A stretch of 64,000 bases of DNA from contig NZ_JADOUF010000001.1 in NCBI RefSeq assembly GCF_015751905.1, positions 496,001 through 560,000 on the forward strand. The letters run 5' to 3'. The notes under the pieces were generated by a model that saw only the letters and a program-made list of their open reading frames with translations, made no database searches and was not told where the DNA came from. Made by a program: the position numbers and the translations under genes. Below are positions 28,858 to 35,561 of the stretch, piece after piece (positions within the stretch are counted from its first letter, which is position 1; each line of letters opens with the position of its first letter). The DNA comes from Longispora fulva (GTDB lineage: Bacteria > Actinomycetota > Actinomycetes > Mycobacteriales > Micromonosporaceae).

Positions 28858-29676
28858 TCAGAAGTGGAGCATGTGCTGGAAGTCGTACCCGGCGTTGCTC
28901 ACGTGCAGGTGCGAGCGGGTGCCGTATCCCAGCGGGGTGTTCCAGTTGTACTCCTCGACATCGAACGAACCGTCGGAGTAGACGGCGTTCACGTAGGCCA
29001 CGTGGCCGAGGTTGTGGACGTCGTTGACCGCGATGGCGCCCACGGTCGGGGTGGTGTCGACCCGGACGCCGACCCGGACGGCGGCGTCGTCCCAGGTGCC
29101 GGCGTTGCCCCAGGTGACTCCGCCGTAGGAGTTACTGAAGCTGGGCACCCCGAGGCGGCTGGCGATGCGGTACGCGGCGAAGGCGGTGCAGTTGTTGGCC
29201 GCGAAGCCGCGGGTGCCGTGGTCGAAGTCGTCAGTCGGGGCCTGGTTCCCGCCACCCCCGCCGAGGAACTGGTGGGAGGCCTCGTTGTTCTTCAGCGTGG
29301 CGTTGAGGTTGGCCATCTGGCCCGGCGCGAAGTCCTGACTGGCGCCGCCGAAGCCACTGTTGTAGTAGACGCGGACGGTCTGTCCGGTGCGGTTCCACAC
29401 CGACGCCGCGTTGTTCTTGACGCAGACGCCCTGGCCGGAGCCGGCGCTCTTGAACTCGTAGCAGGACGGCTGGCTGGACCCGAGATCGCTGACGGAGCCG
29501 GTGAAGTCCGAGACCGAGCCGGCCTGGTTGCTGTTGTAGTAGTAGCAGAACTCTCCGCTGTCGCAGACTCCGTCGCGGGAGGCGGCGAGGGCGGGGCCGG
29601 CGGTGGTGGCCAGGAGTGGGACGGCCAGGGCCAGGGCGGCCGCGGCGACGGTGAGCATGGAGCGCACGCTCTTCAT
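28858..29676 (-). CDS. Secreted protein with peptidase-inhibitor I36 and CHAP domains
   Basis: A 272-residue secreted protein. Residues 1-32 are a Sec signal (LALAVPLLATTAGPALAAS). Residues about 33-130 have the I36 streptomyces metalloprotease-inhibitor pattern (CDSGEFCYYYNSNQAGSVSDF, with paired cysteines). Residues about 150-272 are a CHAP amidase-type domain: NCTAFAAYRIASRLG gives the catalytic cysteine, and GHVAYVNAV with EYNW gives the His and Asn/Glu. Such domains cut cell-wall peptides. It is the last gene of the minus-strand run; 36 bases separate it from the preceding gene. Confidence 0.85.
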   Translation of the reverse strand: MKSVRSMLTVAAAALALAVPLLATTAGPALAASRDGVCDSGEFCYYYNSNQAGSVSDFTGSVSDLGSSQPSCYEFKSAGSGQGVCVKNNAASVWNRTGQTVRVYYNSGFGGASQDFAPGQMANLNATLKNNEASHQFLGGGGGNQAPTDDFDHGTRGFAANNCTAFAAYRIASRLGVPSFSNSYGGVTWGNAGTWDDAAVRVGVRVDTTPTVGAIAVNDVHNLGHVAYVNAVYSDGSFDVEEYNWNTPLGYGTRSHLHVSNAGYDFQHMLHF

Positions 29677-31631: not shown

Positions 31632-32807
31632 TCAGCAGGTGGGCAGGGCGGGCAGGTCGGCCCCGGCGAGCACGTAGGTCACGTACGTCATGCTGTCGGC
31701 CTTGATCTCGCCGTCGGGGTAGGACACCGTGATCGCGCGGCCGTTGCCGAGCGCGGCGCCGTACTGGACGGACATCTGGGTGAACGACCGGCTGCGCAGG
31801 TCCGCGGCGTAGGTGGCGGTCGAACCGGTCCAGGTGACCAGGTCCCCGGCCACGTGGATCCCGTCGATGGCGTCGTCGCCGTCGACGGTCCGGACGGTGA
31901 CCGGTGCCGCCCAGCCGGCGCGCCACGCCGACAGGGTCCGGGAGTCGGCCGAGCTCCACACCCAGGTCGTGCCGTCGCTGGCGATCGACGCCGGCTTGCG
32001 GATCGCGGCGAGCGTGGCCGGCAGCGCGGCCGGGGCCCCGGTGGACACCGAGACGGCGGTGAGCTGGCCGGGCGCGTCGGCGCTGGTGGACTCGGGCCAC
32101 ACGGCCAGGTCGCCGACGAGGATGGGGCTGGCGAGGTGGCCGGTGTGCACGATCCGGTCGACGTCGCCGGCCAGGGTGTACAGGTGCACCTGGCGGCTCG
32201 CGTCCGGGGTCGCCTGGATCCAGGTCGCCGTGCCGTTGCGGACGGCCGGCCACAGGAGCGGCGCACCCGGGGCGGTGGCGTCGTCGTGGGCGATCATGTG
32301 CGGGGCGCCACCGGCGGCGGAGTCCCAGGCGAACAGGTCCCAGGCCCCGACCACGTCCTGCGACTTGTTCGCCGCGAAGACCAGCCACCGGCCGTCGAAG
32401 TCCATCTGGCCGAATCCGAGGTACGGGGCCTGCAGGGTGAACACCGTCTGCCGCCGCGTGCCATGCTCGCGGAGCCAGATGAGCTCGTTCATGTGGGCCG
32501 CCCCGTGGCCGGCCTCGGCGAACAGGGACGATCCGTCGGGGGCGACGGCGACCGGGAAGAGGTTCTCGCCCGGGGCGTGCCCGATGGTGCCGGAAGCGGT
32601 GGCCCGGGTCCAGGACTCGGGGGACTTCACGGCGCAGAAGTTCGTGGCGGTGGCCTTGGCCGGGCCCTGCGGGGCGGGGAAGGCGACTGGGTTCTGGGCG
32701 GCGGCTTGCGGGGCGGGCCGGGGCGCCGGCGAGCACCCGAGGGTACTCGCCAGCACACCACACACCGTCATCGCAAGGAGCCACCTACCAGTAGTACGGA
32801 CGTCCAC
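31632..32807 (-). CDS. Lipoprotein with beta-propeller fold
   Basis: A 391-residue lipoprotein. The signal ends in the lipobox LASTLGC (Cys at about residue 25). A Pro/Ala linker follows, then repeated blades of the TolB/WD40-like kind (GRWLVFAANKSQ, GDLAVWPESTSAD, GTTWVWSSADSRT, GDLVTWTGST), each with a Trp/Val strand. Such propellers bind proteins at the cell surface; no catalytic motif is visible. The start overlaps the stop of the upstream peptidase gene by 23 bases, supporting co-expression. Confidence 0.78.
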   Translation of the reverse strand: MDVRTTGRWLLAMTVCGVLASTLGCSPAPRPAPQAAAQNPVAFPAPQGPAKATATNFCAVKSPESWTRATASGTIGHAPGENLFPVAVAPDGSSLFAEAGHGAAHMNELIWLREHGTRRQTVFTLQAPYLGFGQMDFDGRWLVFAANKSQDVVGAWDLFAWDSAAGGAPHMIAHDDATAPGAPLLWPAVRNGTATWIQATPDASRQVHLYTLAGDVDRIVHTGHLASPILVGDLAVWPESTSADAPGQLTAVSVSTGAPAALPATLAAIRKPASIASDGTTWVWSSADSRTLSAWRAGWAAPVTVRTVDGDDAIDGIHVAGDLVTWTGSTATYAADLRSRSFTQMSVQYGAALGNGRAITVSYPDGEIKADSMTYVTYVLAGADLPALPTC

Positions 32808-33558
32808 TGATGATCCTCACCATGGTGTCCGAGCTGATGGTCGAGTACTTCGGAACGCTCCAGCCGTAGTCGGTGAAAGAGTCGGCGTAGTGCGTCGTGG
32901 CACCGTAGTCGAGGTAGCCGTCAATGGCGATGAAGTGGAACACATTGCTGTTCGACGGGTGCCCGACGAGGTGCGGTCCACCGGCGACCTCGTAGGCCAC
33001 GGCGACGAGTCCGTACCCGGCGTTGATGTCACTCTGCAGCCGCGACTGGTAACTCGCGACATAGTTCGAGTAGGGCGAGCTGACCTGAACCTCGTCGTAC
33101 TTGAATCCGCCGGAGTAGGCGTTGAGCGCCGGCCCCATTTCGCCGCCATTGGTGCCGCTGCCGCCCGGAGCGCCGGTGTGCAGGACGCCGGCCGCCCAAC
33201 CCTGGTCCTTGTAGATGCCATGCTCGGCGAGCGTCTCCACCAGGGACGCCGGGCCGCAGTAGTTGTTGTACCACTGCCGCTGCTGGCTTTCGGTGAGCAG
33301 GTGGTAGCCCGGACCGCCGATCGTCGAGGCGTGGATGTGGGAGTTCATCCAGGCCTGCTTCTCGGGCGACACCGCGTCGGGGGCGGTGACGACCTTGTGG
33401 GCCTCGTAGCCGTCGGTGCCGGGCCGGTCGGCCGAGGCCTTGGCCTGGGCCAATGCCCGGTCGCCGAGGGCGGTGGGGCCGGCGGCGCTGGCCGGACCCG
33501 AGGCCATCAGCCCCGCTACCGCCGCTGCCGCCGTGATGGCGAGAATTCGCTTGTACAC
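32785..33558 (-). CDS. Secreted C39-like cysteine peptidase
   Basis: A 257-residue secreted protein. The signal is KRILAITAAAAVAGLMASG followed by PASA. The papain-like C39 core shows NNYCGPASLVETLAEHG (nucleophile Cys in a CGPAS motif) and FHFIAIDGYLDYG (His and Asp). C39 peptidases usually cleave double-glycine leaders of peptides, though secreted actinomycete members may act on other targets. GTG 33558 has AAAGGAGT at proper spacing. With a short exported peptide encoded four genes upstream in the same direction, leader or pro-peptide processing is an appealing idea, but not shown. Confidence 0.8.
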   Translation of the reverse strand: MYKRILAITAAAAVAGLMASGPASAAGPTALGDRALAQAKASADRPGTDGYEAHKVVTAPDAVSPEKQAWMNSHIHASTIGGPGYHLLTESQQRQWYNNYCGPASLVETLAEHGIYKDQGWAAGVLHTGAPGGSGTNGGEMGPALNAYSGGFKYDEVQVSSPYSNYVASYQSRLQSDINAGYGLVAVAYEVAGGPHLVGHPSNSNVFHFIAIDGYLDYGATTHYADSFTDYGWSVPKYSTISSDTMVRIISGRPYYW

Positions 33559-33639
33559 GATGACTCCTTTTGAATTGGGGGGCGGGTTTTCCGCCCCCCA
33601 GAACAATCGCAGTATTCGTGTGTGGCGAATAGACGGACC

Positions 33640-33933
33640 TTAGGGCGTAGAACAATGGTGCGTACCGCACTGGCAGTGCAGAACACTGAATGCGACTATT
33701 CCCACCTGCAGTCTCGACTCGACTCCCAGGCGGATCATCACCGCGGAGACGTGCTGTTTCACCGTGCGGTCGGCGAGCCCGATCTCGCGGGCGATGTGGG
33801 CGTTACTCAGGCCGCGGCCGATGCAGTCGAAGATGACGGCCTGTTGCCGGGTCAGCGAGTCGGCCCTGGCGCGCGCGTGCGCGAGCCAGACCGGATCGTG
33901 GTGGACGGGACGGAACTCGGCGAGCGTCTGCAT
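33640..33933 (-). CDS. Small LuxR-type helix-turn-helix protein
   Basis: A 97-residue protein that is mainly a LuxR C-terminal DNA-binding domain: LTRQQAVIFDCIGRGLSNAHIAREIGLADRTVKQHVSAVM. There is no receiver or sensor domain, so activity would be set by amount or partner. The tail CQCGTHHCSTP is Cys/His-rich and could bind metal. ATG 33933 follows AGAGG. It starts 28 bases after the 90-residue gene and sits within the peptide/secreted-protein run. Confidence 0.8.
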   Translation of the reverse strand: MQTLAEFRPVHHDPVWLAHARARADSLTRQQAVIFDCIGRGLSNAHIAREIGLADRTVKQHVSAVMIRLGVESRLQVGIVAFSVLHCQCGTHHCSTP

Positions 33934-33961: not shown

Positions 33962-34234
33962 TCAGCCGGCCAGCAGCCAACGCGACAGCTCCGGGCTGTG
34001 TTCGAGAGCGCGGGCGCACAGGGCCCGCGCGGTGTCGAGGCCGGCGGACCGGCTCTCGGCGAGCACGAAGACGGCCACGTCGATGTGGCCGGGGTCGATC
34101 CGGACCCGGAAGTGCTCGATACGGTCCTCCGGCCGGCACCGCGCCCAGAGCTGCTCGGTCACGGCGGTCGGGTCGGGCTGGGCGTCCGTGGGGCCGGCCA
34201 GAGCCAACGTGATCAGGTGCAAGGCGGTGTCCAT
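33962..34234 (-). CDS. Small protein of unknown family (90 aa)
   Basis: A 90-residue protein I do not recognise. It has an alpha/beta pattern: an N-terminal helix (TAVTEQLWARC), a strand (RVRIDPGHIDVAVFVLA), and a C-terminal helix (ARALCARALEHSPELSRWLL). No signal or membrane segment is evident. It begins 8 bases after the exported-peptide gene and precedes the LuxR-HTH gene by 28 bases, so it is in the same operon. It could be a cytosolic partner of the peptide or of the regulator. Confidence 0.65.
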   Translation of the reverse strand: MDTALHLITLALAGPTDAQPDPTAVTEQLWARCRPEDRIEHFRVRIDPGHIDVAVFVLAESRSAGLDTARALCARALEHSPELSRWLLAG

Positions 34235-34242
34235 GGTGGGGT

Positions 34243-34386
34243 TCAGCCCTTCTGGTTCGGGTCGGTGACGCCCCAGCCGAAGCCGTCGGCGACGAGGGTT
34301 CCGTGCGTGCCGGTCGGTGCGGTGGCGACCGCGACGGTCCCGACGAGGAGGATGAGGGCTACGAACAGGAGCAGGATTTTGATCAT
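34243..34386 (-). CDS. Exported 47-residue peptide, candidate signal
   Basis: A 47-residue peptide starting MIKILLLFVALILLVGTVAVA. The hydrophobic core after a single lysine is a Sec-type signal or membrane anchor; a cut near ATA would release PTGTHGTLVADGFGWG and a short charged tail. ATG 34386 is preceded by GGAG at 7-base spacing. It is the first gene of the minus-strand run and faces the TrmB/LuxR regulator gene. A short exported peptide beside a dedicated regulator is the layout of Gram-positive peptide signalling; a role as a pheromone is inferred. Confidence 0.55.
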   Translation of the reverse strand: MIKILLLFVALILLVGTVAVATAPTGTHGTLVADGFGWGVTDPNQKG

Positions 34387-34486
34387 GGACAGTCTCCACC
34401 CGTGAACGAGGTACCTGGCTTTCCGGAACGCTTCCGGTGCCTCCGAGTCTGCGCCGGGTCCGGGCGCACCGGCAGGGCCGCGGGCT

Positions 34487-34516
34487 GTCCCCAAAGGGCC
34501 TGGTCCCAAAGGGGAC
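34487..34516. promoter_or_regulatory. Tandem inverted-repeat pair between peptide and regulator genes
   Basis: GTCCCCAAAGGGCC (34487-34500) and GTCCCAAAGGGGAC (34503-34516) are near-copies at a 16-base period; the second is a perfect 5-bp inverted repeat with a 4-base spacer. They lie in the divergent promoter region and look like operators. Confidence 0.45.
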
Positions 34517-34532
34517 ACGGGCCGTCAGGCGG

Positions 34533-34551
34533 CGTAAGGCAAACGTAAGGC
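34533..34551 (+). promoter_or_regulatory. Direct repeat upstream of the regulator gene
   Basis: CGTAAGGC occurs twice, 11 bases apart (34533-34540, 34544-34551), one helical turn. A CACAAT -10-like element starts 8 bases later at 34560. The layout resembles direct-repeat activator sites placed just upstream of a -10. Confidence 0.45.
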
Positions 34552-34586
34552 GGGTGGTCCACAATGCGGTCTGGGGGTGGCTGATC

Positions 34587-35561
34587 ATGTTGGAGATACT
34601 GGGGCTCTCTGACCCGACGGCGCGGGTGTACCAGGCCATGCTGTCGCACCCAGGCCGCGGAGTGGCGGTCCTCGCCGAGGTCGCCGAGCTGACCGAGGCC
34701 CAGGTCCGCGCGGCACTCAACGAACTCGCCGACCTGGAACTCCTGCGACCGCAGCTCGACGGCACCCAGCGCCCGGTCAGCCCGGAGATCGGTCTGACAG
34801 CCCTGCTGGCAGCGGCCGAGAGCGAGGTGGCCGACAAGCAGCGCCAGATCGAGGCCACCCGGGCGGCGATCGCCGCGATCGCCACCGAGCACGAGGCGCA
34901 CCGCGCCCAGAGTTCCGACAGCGCGATCCGGCTAGAAGGGCTGGTCGCCGTCCGGGCCAGGCTGGAGGAACTGTCCGTCCTCGCCCGGGAGGAGTGCCTG
35001 TCGCTCAATCCCGGCGGCGCGCACCGTCCCGACGCCCGGAGCGCCTCGGCGCCCCTCAACCAACAGGCCCTCGAACGCGGGGTCCGGATCCAGACGGTCT
35101 GCCGGGACAGCTTCCGCAACGACCTCGCCACCCTGGCCTACGCGCGCTGGCTGACCAACCTGGGCGGCCAGATGCGCACCGTACCCACGGTGCCGATGCC
35201 CCTGATCATCATCGACCGCCGGATCGCGGTGCTCCCCATCGACCCCGTGGACCCGACGATCGGCGCCCTGGAGGTGACCAGCCCCGGGATCCTGGCGGCC
35301 TCATGCGCCCTGTTCGACCATCTGTGGAGCACCGGCACGCCCTTCGCGACCGCGGTCACCACCGACGAACAGGGCCTGACTCCACAGGAACGCACCCTGC
35401 TGGAACTCGCCGACGCCGGCCACACCGACGAGAGCGCCGCCCGCAAGCTGGGGGTGTCGGCGCGGACGGTCAAGCGGGCGATGGCCGAACTGATGGAGCG
35501 GCTGCGCGCCACCAGCCGGTTCCAGGCCGGGGCCAACGCCGCCCGGCGGGGCTGGATCTGA
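34587..35561 (+). CDS. TrmB-type/LuxR-HTH transcriptional regulator
   Basis: A 324-residue regulator. Residues 1-65 form a TrmB-like winged helix (LGLSDPTARVYQAMLSHP, then VRAALNELADLELL). Residues about 70-110 are a coiled coil. The middle (about 110-255) resembles the TrmB effector domain, with a hydrophobic strand IIIDRRIAVLPID. Residues about 265-320 are a LuxR-type DNA-binding domain (LTPQERTLLELADAGHTDESAARKLG). ATG 34587 follows GGGGGTGG. It faces the exported-peptide operon across the repeats, which makes it the natural receptor-regulator of that set; the ligand is unknown. Confidence 0.8.
   Translation: MLEILGLSDPTARVYQAMLSHPGRGVAVLAEVAELTEAQVRAALNELADLELLRPQLDGTQRPVSPEIGLTALLAAAESEVADKQRQIEATRAAIAAIATEHEAHRAQSSDSAIRLEGLVAVRARLEELSVLAREECLSLNPGGAHRPDARSASAPLNQQALERGVRIQTVCRDSFRNDLATLAYARWLTNLGGQMRTVPTVPMPLIIIDRRIAVLPIDPVDPTIGALEVTSPGILAASCALFDHLWSTGTPFATAVTTDEQGLTPQERTLLELADAGHTDESAARKLGVSARTVKRAMAELMERLRATSRFQAGANAARRGWI

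Follow-up and report, generated by a model that had tools for sequence, protein, structure and literature searches.

A propeptide gene divergent from a TrmB/LuxR-type regulator in Longispora fulva: one copy of a diversified family of putative peptide–receptor modules

What might a short, apparently exported peptide be for when its gene stands back to back with that of a predicted cytosolic regulator? The question is raised by a locus of the actinobacterium Longispora fulva at positions 34,243 to 35,561 of a 64,000-nucleotide stretch of its genome (contig NZ_JADOUF010000001.1, positions 496,001 to 560,000; hereafter the window), where the genes for a 47-residue propeptide and a 324-residue regulator are divergent neighbours with 200 bp between them. 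Comparison of predicted genes confirms that this pair belongs to a large and diversified family of putative peptide–receptor modules in soil actinobacteria. We consider it probable that the peptide is a pheromone and the regulator its cytosolic receptor, which would read it by a TrmB-type effector domain. Read directly in the sequences are the conserved linkage of the two genes, the conserved and multiplied peptide cores, the operator layout, the domain architecture of the regulator, and a co-variation with the core that is specific to one domain.

Features of the locus, in window coordinates:
34243–34386, minus strand: propeptide gene, 47 amino acids (aa); hydrophobic Sec-type N-terminal leader, tail ending ...LVADGFGWGVTDPNQKG (translation)
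34270–34284, minus strand: core GFGWG, propeptide residues 35–39; the part kept among relatives, present in 2–6 copies in some
34394–34400, minus strand: ribosome-binding-like GGTGGAG ahead of the propeptide ATG; ACGGGTGGAG-NN-TGTC is also found ahead of the peptides of L049/L002 and L019
34587–35561, plus strand: regulator, putative peptide receptor, 324 aa
34587–34778, plus strand: TrmB-type winged helix, regulator residues 1–64 (Pfam, AlphaFold2)
34917–35354, plus strand: PLD-like/TrmB effector domain, residues 111–256; its divergence tracks the peptide core
35364–35558, plus strand: LuxR-type helix-turn-helix (HTH), residues 260–324 (Pfam, AlphaFold2)
34486–34517, unstranded: operator with two near-palindromes in tandem, TGTCCCCAAAGGGCC-T-GGTCCCAAAGGGGACA; it lies about 100 bp ahead of the regulator start
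34487–34500 and 34503–34516: the operator near-palindromes GTCCCCAAAGGGCC and GTCCCAAAGGGGAC, 16 bp apart
33962–34234, minus strand: third component, a 90-aa predicted ferredoxin-like protein, 8 nt past the peptide stop
33640–33933, minus strand: 97-aa LuxR-type HTH protein (GerE 46.6 bits), last gene of the three-gene run
32785–33558, minus strand: candidate output, a predicted secreted C39-like protein (Peptidase_C39_2 20.1 bits, under the Pfam cut-off of 24)

A preliminary description of this DNA had proposed a short peptide with a Sec-type core and a tail containing GFGWG, with its own ribosome site and at the head of a gene run. The translation, the GGTGGAG and a run of three minus-strand open reading frames (ORFs), in which the propeptide precedes the 90-aa and the 97-aa proteins, bear this out. 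The regulator had been described as a winged helix, coil, effector domain and LuxR-type HTH, and the domain searches agree: TrmB (PF01978) matches residues 2–54 with 26.6 bits (cut-off 25.6) and GerE (PF00196) residues 263–314 with 35.3 bits (cut-off 23.5), and the AlphaFold2 model (predicted local distance difference test, pLDDT, 90.7) shows a winged helix at 1–63, a long helix at 66–108, an effector domain at about 112–255 and an HTH at 260–324. The effector domain behind the coiled coil is predicted to be PLD-like from this model and its matches to 5bpd and 2f5t. The tandem operators expected between the divergent genes are present at 34487–34516, with a similar layout in relatives. Pfam searches of the regulator up to E 0.1 gave no match to tetratricopeptide repeats (TPR) and no autoinducer-binding (acyl-homoserine-lactone) domain, NCBIfam matches to it were at the HTH level and all under cut-offs, and the propeptide has no match in Pfam or NCBIfam.

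Conservation of the peptide–regulator pair

The 47-aa peptide, used alone as a query, matched only itself and one paralogue in two genomes of the genus; because it is too short for this purpose, the regulator and the third gene were used for the searches. Relatives of the regulator (E≤1e-70) occupy 76 places in 58 of 354 genomes of the family, and a tryptophan-core (W-core) peptide, G-x-x-W-x or a variant of it, is found near 59 of these regulators. The list of peptides is hand-curated, from short ORFs in wide flanks, then from ORFs directly upstream of the third gene, and then from a reading of unfiltered frames. The proposal made in the preliminary description depended on the peptide frame being kept where the regulator is, and a search for the same neighbourhood in other actinomycetes had been suggested; the frame is kept in these 59 of 76 relatives, and the pair recurs with a core type that tracks the effector domain across genera. 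That proposal did not include a third conserved gene, cores in several copies or recurrent neighbouring genes, all of which are described below.

There are 26 core types: GFGWG, GFGWT, GFGWS, GFGWA, GFGWD, GAGWG, GMTWG, GFSWG, GYSWG, GFEWA, GFEWS, GFEWH, GSEWG, GSEWA, GAEWG, GNEWG, GFDWS, GYYWD, GLIWP, GLIWE, SLIWD, TLVWD, DMTWE, DFTWQ, DLTWQ, and one that stops at GFGW.

The position of the peptide relative to the regulator is far from arbitrary. An ORF with an ATG start, 20–90 aa, a hydrophobic stretch and G-x-x-W lies in the divergent slot, within 500 nt of the regulator start, at 32 of the 76 loci. The same class of ORF occurs at 500–1000 nt in 4 of 76, and in all other strand and 500-nt bins of the same loci in 17 of 2760, part of these 17 being peptides of other arrangements. 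With a Shine-Dalgarno filter and GTG starts allowed, the divergent slot holds 20 of 76 and each other bin 0–4. The form G-x-x-W was picked after these loci had been viewed, and the reverse and out-of-family searches are less biased checks.

One such check is provided by 396 genomes of the phylum (the window's own included), 21 of which hold the regulator at E≤1e-40. Inspection by eye of 28 fetched loci found a Sec-like ORF with a W core in 11, two of which share one peptide; examples of core repeats there are DSGWT in five copies, and DPGWQ and DLPWT in two each. Out of 126 records with a match, six named Streptomyces plasmid loci were inspected, and a W-core peptide was found in five and the third gene in five. 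The peptides are those of NBC_01351 (GYGW, missing from the listed annotation), NBC_00012 (DGFGW three times, WP_331734796.1), NBC_00998 (GIGWD three times, WP_266637118.1), NBC_01708 (GAGWD six times, WP_329212364.1) and NBC_01724 (DVTWGG), while in NBC_01643 neither a W-core peptide nor the third gene was found.

The 90-aa protein proved to be a third conserved member. A hidden Markov model grown from it matches within 4.5 kb of 67 of the 76 regulators; a W-core peptide is present at 58 of these 67 loci, as against one of the nine without the third gene (L093 in our numbering of loci), and in 49 loci the third gene lies directly downstream of the peptide. Its AlphaFold2 model (pLDDT 95.8) has the order beta-alpha-beta-beta-alpha-beta. 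Searches up to E 1 gave no Pfam family, and there was no confident match in the PDB (best Foldseek E 8e-3), so that "ferredoxin-like" denotes a fold class only. In the reverse direction, the third-gene profile gave 26 matches in 121 family genomes, with a regulator within 1.5 kb in 21. Five matches remain: a W-core peptide is present at L171 and L185 and a decayed one at L165, and L170 and L175 are already-known modules with the regulator farther away. Regulator neighbours had served to build the profile, and the majority of its matches are known loci, so this is a partial control.

Co-variation of the peptide core with the effector domain

A hydrophobic stretch (13 residues with a mean Kyte-Doolittle value of at least 1.8) is present in 53 of the 59 propeptides, and the core is doubled in 13 of them (L037, L051, L053, L059, L064, L068, L073, L074, L086, L110, L112, L114 and L116). 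In 11 groups of close relatives, the seven codons around each W carry 71 synonymous and 43 nonsynonymous changes in 294 comparisons, while all other propeptide codons carry 256 and 669 in 1465. This contrast is to be read as indicative, since the selection itself involved G and W, and the pairs overlap; it suggests that the core is the conserved part of the propeptide and that the leader letters and the remaining tail vary freely.

Our best evidence for a reading of the peptide by the effector domain is that the variation of the core follows that of this domain. Mapped on the regulator tree (56 labelled rows, before three more were added), the core label requires 28 changes, where the minimum for 26 types is 25, compared with at least 39 in 200 shuffles. 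Across 1290 inter-genus pairs of regulators (59 rows), core similarity correlates with effector-domain identity at a Spearman rho of 0.61, and the partial value of 0.546, given the other domains, was reached in none of 300 permutations; when only 64 of the effector columns were taken, the correlation remained at 0.39–0.66. The corresponding values are 0.338 for the coil (–0.01 given the effector domain), 0.127 for the winged helix and 0.141 for the LuxR HTH. The third gene, which is equally linked, gave 0.165 in 1208 pairs, with a partial value of –0.018 given the effector domain. Among the 25 columns most strongly associated with the core, 17 are in the effector domain, which accounts for 133 of the 281 columns tested; the coil holds 4, the LuxR HTH 3 and the winged helix 1. 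The regulator alignment holds 75 of the 76 proteins, L037 being omitted there and included in the tree and co-variation counts, and the third-gene alignment 62 of 67 (omitted: L088.0, L091, L098, L101 and L117).

The nearest regulator from another genus comes with an identical four-residue core in 28 of 59 cases, compared with 15% of random inter-genus pairs, and the core similarity of paralogues within a genome (16 pairs) averages 1.125 of 4, compared with 1.565 between genera. As the core tracks the effector domain, and neither the third gene nor the DNA-binding domains, the effector domain is the part that would read the peptide.

The genome of L. fulva itself contains several regulator paralogues, the closest full-length one (C1:7411864) being 66% identical. 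A 320-aa frame at G000:C1:2508741-2508929 (L011) matches just the last 63 regulator residues, at 83% identity; as this is confined to the C-terminus and exceeds the 66% of the best full-length paralogue, an exchange of the LuxR HTH domain is likely. Divergent from a distant paralogue in the same genome lies another Sec-like short ORF (L012, 1292–1432, minus strand), with a different Trp-rich tail, ...DDDWWKWCAGCIPSTSN. The propeptide of L019 (MSRIVALF...) has relatives in its own genome in which the W core is lost or cut and which are possibly decayed or cheater peptides: L155 (3665–3829, minus strand) has the decayed end ...VADSYGLG, L156 (7137–7694, plus strand) is a MSRIVALF remnant fused to a lipoprotein-like ORF, and L165 (1773–1907, minus strand) reads VADGYGAEP.

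Operators, neighbouring genes and candidate outputs

The 30-bp tandem pair at 34487–34516 is unique in the 8.68-Mb genome, allowing up to 3 mismatches. Single GTCCCN4GGGNC sites show no excess in the window (3 matches, 4.58 expected), and all three fall at the two operator places. Many relatives have a 31-bp double palindrome, of the forms TGGCACCAAGGTGCCTGGCACCTTGATGCCA or TGGCGTGA...TCACGCCA, about 100–120 bp ahead of the regulator. A k-mer scan of the upstream regions did not separate operator words from those of ribosome sites and codons; the 31-bp layout was then read by eye and scored: the first consensus is matched at 24 or more of its 31 places in 11 of 76 upstream regions and in none of 380 shuffles.

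The 8.68-Mb genome contains four copies of TGGCACCAAGGTGC, the operator half of paralogue C1:7411864, against 0 in the control. One copy is in the paralogue's own divergent promoter, and the others precede the L019 peptide (VADGAGWG, followed by a CHAP/FG-GAP gene), L155 (decayed peptide, CHAP/FG-GAP) and L156 (fused remnant, FG-GAP).

A census of the neighbourhood covered 602 ORFs within 4.5 kb of the 76 regulators that passed a filter on GC content at third codon positions (GC3), clusters of at least 5 loci being considered. A secreted FG-GAP-type group is found at 28 loci (33 proteins); in some relatives a secreted FG-GAP/CHAP/M23 protein is encoded after the third gene. FG-GAP repeats are present in six of eight proteins scanned from this group, five of which also match CHAP, M23 or tachylectin; the remaining two gave no match at 1e-6. 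Weak Pfam names given to FG-GAP repeats, such as TcdB_toxin_midN, BBSome and Dockerin, were taken as cross-matches of repeats and rejected as functions.

Two further groups occur at 9 loci each: BTAD proteins, of the Streptomyces antibiotic regulatory protein (SARP) type, and AMP-binding proteins, as in non-ribosomal peptide synthetases (NRPS), with the domain confirmed in the three scanned from each. GFGWD-type and some other modules (L110, L112, L114, L116 and others) adjoin BTAD regulators, some also AMP-binding/NRPS genes. These neighbours hint that some modules may control secondary metabolism. Among the smaller clusters are ABC_tran and MFS proteins, at 6 loci each (one of each scanned). 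At L054, L056, L058, L060, L066 and L071, the gene right after the third gene clusters with the TrmB-LuxR regulator L069:6691-7680; its product, scanned at L054, L056 and L071, matched nothing in Pfam and is possibly a stand-alone effector-like domain.

In the window itself, a strong inverted repeat, GGGGGGCGGGTTTTCCGCCCCCC (33577–33599), lies between the genes of the 97-aa LuxR-type protein and the C39-like protein, and may be a terminator or attenuator. Farther away, at 28858–29676 on the minus strand, is the gene of a predicted secreted protein with peptidase inhibitor I36 and CHAP domains.

A proposed signalling loop, its alternatives and its relation to known systems

We propose that the propeptide is exported via Sec and that trimming of its tail leaves a short peptide with the W core, around VADGFGWG. 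A general oligopeptide importer would take this peptide back up; in favour of such a route, the genome encodes 12 SBP_bac_5 (oligopeptide/nickel-type) substrate-binding proteins, a family with oligopeptide binders among its members. The peptide would then bind the divergently encoded regulator, in its PLD-like (TrmB-type) effector domain. The regulator would occupy the tandem operator with its winged helix and its LuxR-type HTH, and peptide binding would switch the divergent promoters, raising or releasing the operon of the peptide and its ferredoxin-like partner. The peptide operon would thus be under the control of its own signal, which is proposed to feed back on itself, and in many relatives the output would include secreted wall-acting proteins. 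Lineages would differ in their cores, each core matched to its own effector domain, and the ferredoxin-like protein may be a partner in holding or delivering the peptide. We infer the translation, export, trimming, import and binding of the peptide from comparative evidence only; equally conjectural are the sign of regulation, the unmodified state of the peptide and what the ferredoxin-like protein does.

Several observations weigh against this proposal. A W-core peptide was not found at 17 of the 76 regulators, and it was found at only 11 of the 28 loci of the phylum search. Hydropathy served as a stand-in for a signal-peptide predictor, and 6 of the 59 propeptides have no clear hydrophobic stretch; among these are the leaderless peptides of L049 (16 aa), L052 (21 aa) and L098 (19 aa), which suggest that export may not be needed everywhere. 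No oligopeptide importer was seen among the neighbour clusters (at least 5 loci, within 4.5 kb of the 76 regulators), and none of the 12 SBP_bac_5 proteins is encoded near the module. The operator consensus was derived from the same sequences that were later scored, and the window's own site agrees with it at 17 of 31 places, inside the range of the shuffles, so that its kinship rests on layout and place. Concerning the co-variation, the pairs are non-independent, the permutations take no account of phylogeny, and the effector domain may stand out simply because no other part of the protein is as informative. Lastly, an enzyme typical of ribosomally synthesised and post-translationally modified peptides (RiPPs), the RiPP maturation radical S-adenosylmethionine (SAM) C-methyltransferase TIGR03975, is encoded at five loci of the GF/GYSWGM clade (L056, L058, L060, L066 and L071), on the opposite strand and about 2–4 kb from the regulator. 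The two scanned (L060 8140–9969 and L071 7844–9673) score 560 and 566 bits against a cut-off of 282, and a HalD-type halogenase and a methyltransferase lie on the other side (one of each scanned, in L060). This radical SAM enzyme suggests that some of the peptides may be modified.

Of the alternative explanations, one would have the peptide itself as the product, a secreted antimicrobial or a wall- or surface-acting agent, with a regulator that senses something else. The peptide indeed looks exported, and the operons of many relatives hold secreted FG-GAP, CHAP and M23 proteins. We nevertheless regard this as unlikely, as one would not expect the core of an unrelated product to track the effector domain without tracking the DNA-binding domains or the linked third gene; furthermore, the remaining tail varies freely, and cores in 2–6 copies with spacers resemble processed units. 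Alternatively, the precursor or its core might act inside the producing cell, with no export and re-import, the leader being a membrane anchor or timing device. The leaderless versions of L049, L052 and L098, which retain the core, and the lack of a linked oligopeptide importer fit such intracellular self-sensing. However, the hydrophobic stretch is kept in 53 of 59 propeptides though the letters of the leader change freely, the genome has its 12 SBP_bac_5 proteins, and the leaderless copies may be decayed, as the same genome holds a leadered copy with the same core (L019). We therefore judge self-sensing to be quite unlikely.

It is more improbable still that the propeptide is a RiPP precursor with an enzymatically modified tail, and the regulator a pathway regulator or a sensor of the modified product. 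A short precursor with a conserved C-terminal core that is sometimes multiplied would suit this, as would the radical SAM enzyme, halogenase and methyltransferase by the GF/GYSWGM-clade modules and the SARP-type regulators and AMP-binding/NRPS genes near some modules. Yet the enzyme is clustered at 5 of the 76 loci only; L071 has the enzyme but no W-core peptide was found there, and L054 has the peptide but no enzyme in the cluster. Elsewhere, the third gene and the secreted FG-GAP-type group are the most widespread neighbours within 4.5 kb, and no RiPP modifying enzyme was seen in the neighbour clusters of at least 5 loci. The leader looks Sec-type, and the enzyme may serve another product under the control of the module. 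The presence of a RiPP-type cluster beside the GYSWGM module has slightly lowered our confidence in a pheromone and slightly raised it in a RiPP. That the ORF is spurious and its motif due to chance, the regulator alone being real, would fit a tiny peptide with no Pfam or NCBIfam match, but is extremely improbable and is already contradicted by the positional contrast of 32 of 76 against 17 of 2760, by synonymous change in the core and by the same kind of motif in the further searches.

A pheromone with a cytosolic receptor is reminiscent of the RRNPP systems (Rap, Rgg, NprR, PlcR, PrgX and relatives). According to PMC10075063, their propeptides are 10–100 aa long and secreted by Sec or PptAB, their receptors have 250–500 aa with peptide-binding TPRs, and the two genes are adjacent; the same paper states that actinobacterial signals are typically small molecules made by enzymes. 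Measured against that account, the present locus has in common a small propeptide (47 aa) adjoining the gene of a cytosolic receptor (324 aa) and diversified peptide–receptor pairs. It differs in a receptor that lacks a TPR match and consists of a TrmB winged helix, coil, PLD-like effector domain and LuxR HTH, and also in the G-x-x-W-x core, the third conserved gene and the actinobacterial hosts. The receptor is not an RRNPP protein. With the TrmB family (archaeal TrmB and TrmBL2) it shares the winged helix and a PLD-like effector domain behind a coiled coil, but it has an additional C-terminal LuxR HTH and a coupled propeptide gene, and its proposed ligand is a peptide and not a sugar. Actinobacterial LuxR-type regulators and solos share the GerE HTH, whereas the effector domain here is PLD-like, with no acyl-homoserine-lactone domain among the Pfam matches.

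The precursor of the yeast alpha-factor is a secreted, multi-copy pheromone precursor in which short core copies alternate with spacers. The modules resemble it in having several short cores with spacers in one precursor, and differ in being bacterial, with 1–6 copies and a receptor predicted to be cytosolic. The gamma-butyrolactone systems of Streptomyces are autoregulated signal–receptor pairs for development and antibiotics, with TetR-type receptors and small-molecule ligands; an autoregulated pair, as proposed here, is common to both, and the receptor type and the ligand differ. Peptide signalling with a cytosolic receptor is thus of a known kind, while a TrmB/PLD-type receptor class for peptides is not described in the literature searched. 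No description of this peptide–regulator pair was found among the matches listed in the open-licence PMC literature, and one in a subscription paper or preprint is possible.

We consider a broader proposal, that the modules constitute an undescribed peptide language of actinobacteria, to be evenly balanced. It would comprise polymorphic Trp-core pheromones and matching PLD-fold effector domains of LuxR-HTH regulators, a ferredoxin-like partner, precursors with 1–6 copies, orphan or decayed copies (cheaters and eavesdroppers), and outputs that extend from FG-GAP wall enzymes to antibiotic regulators. Streptomyces and its relatives make many antibiotics, and cues for their silent clusters are sought. 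If our reading is true, the peptide code would be legible in genomes, and cheap synthetic peptides would provide a handle on secreted wall enzymes and, for some modules, on the adjoining SARP regulators, NRPS or RiPP genes. The TrmB/PLD fold would then become a peptide receptor, one with no kinship to the TPR receptors that Bacillota use.

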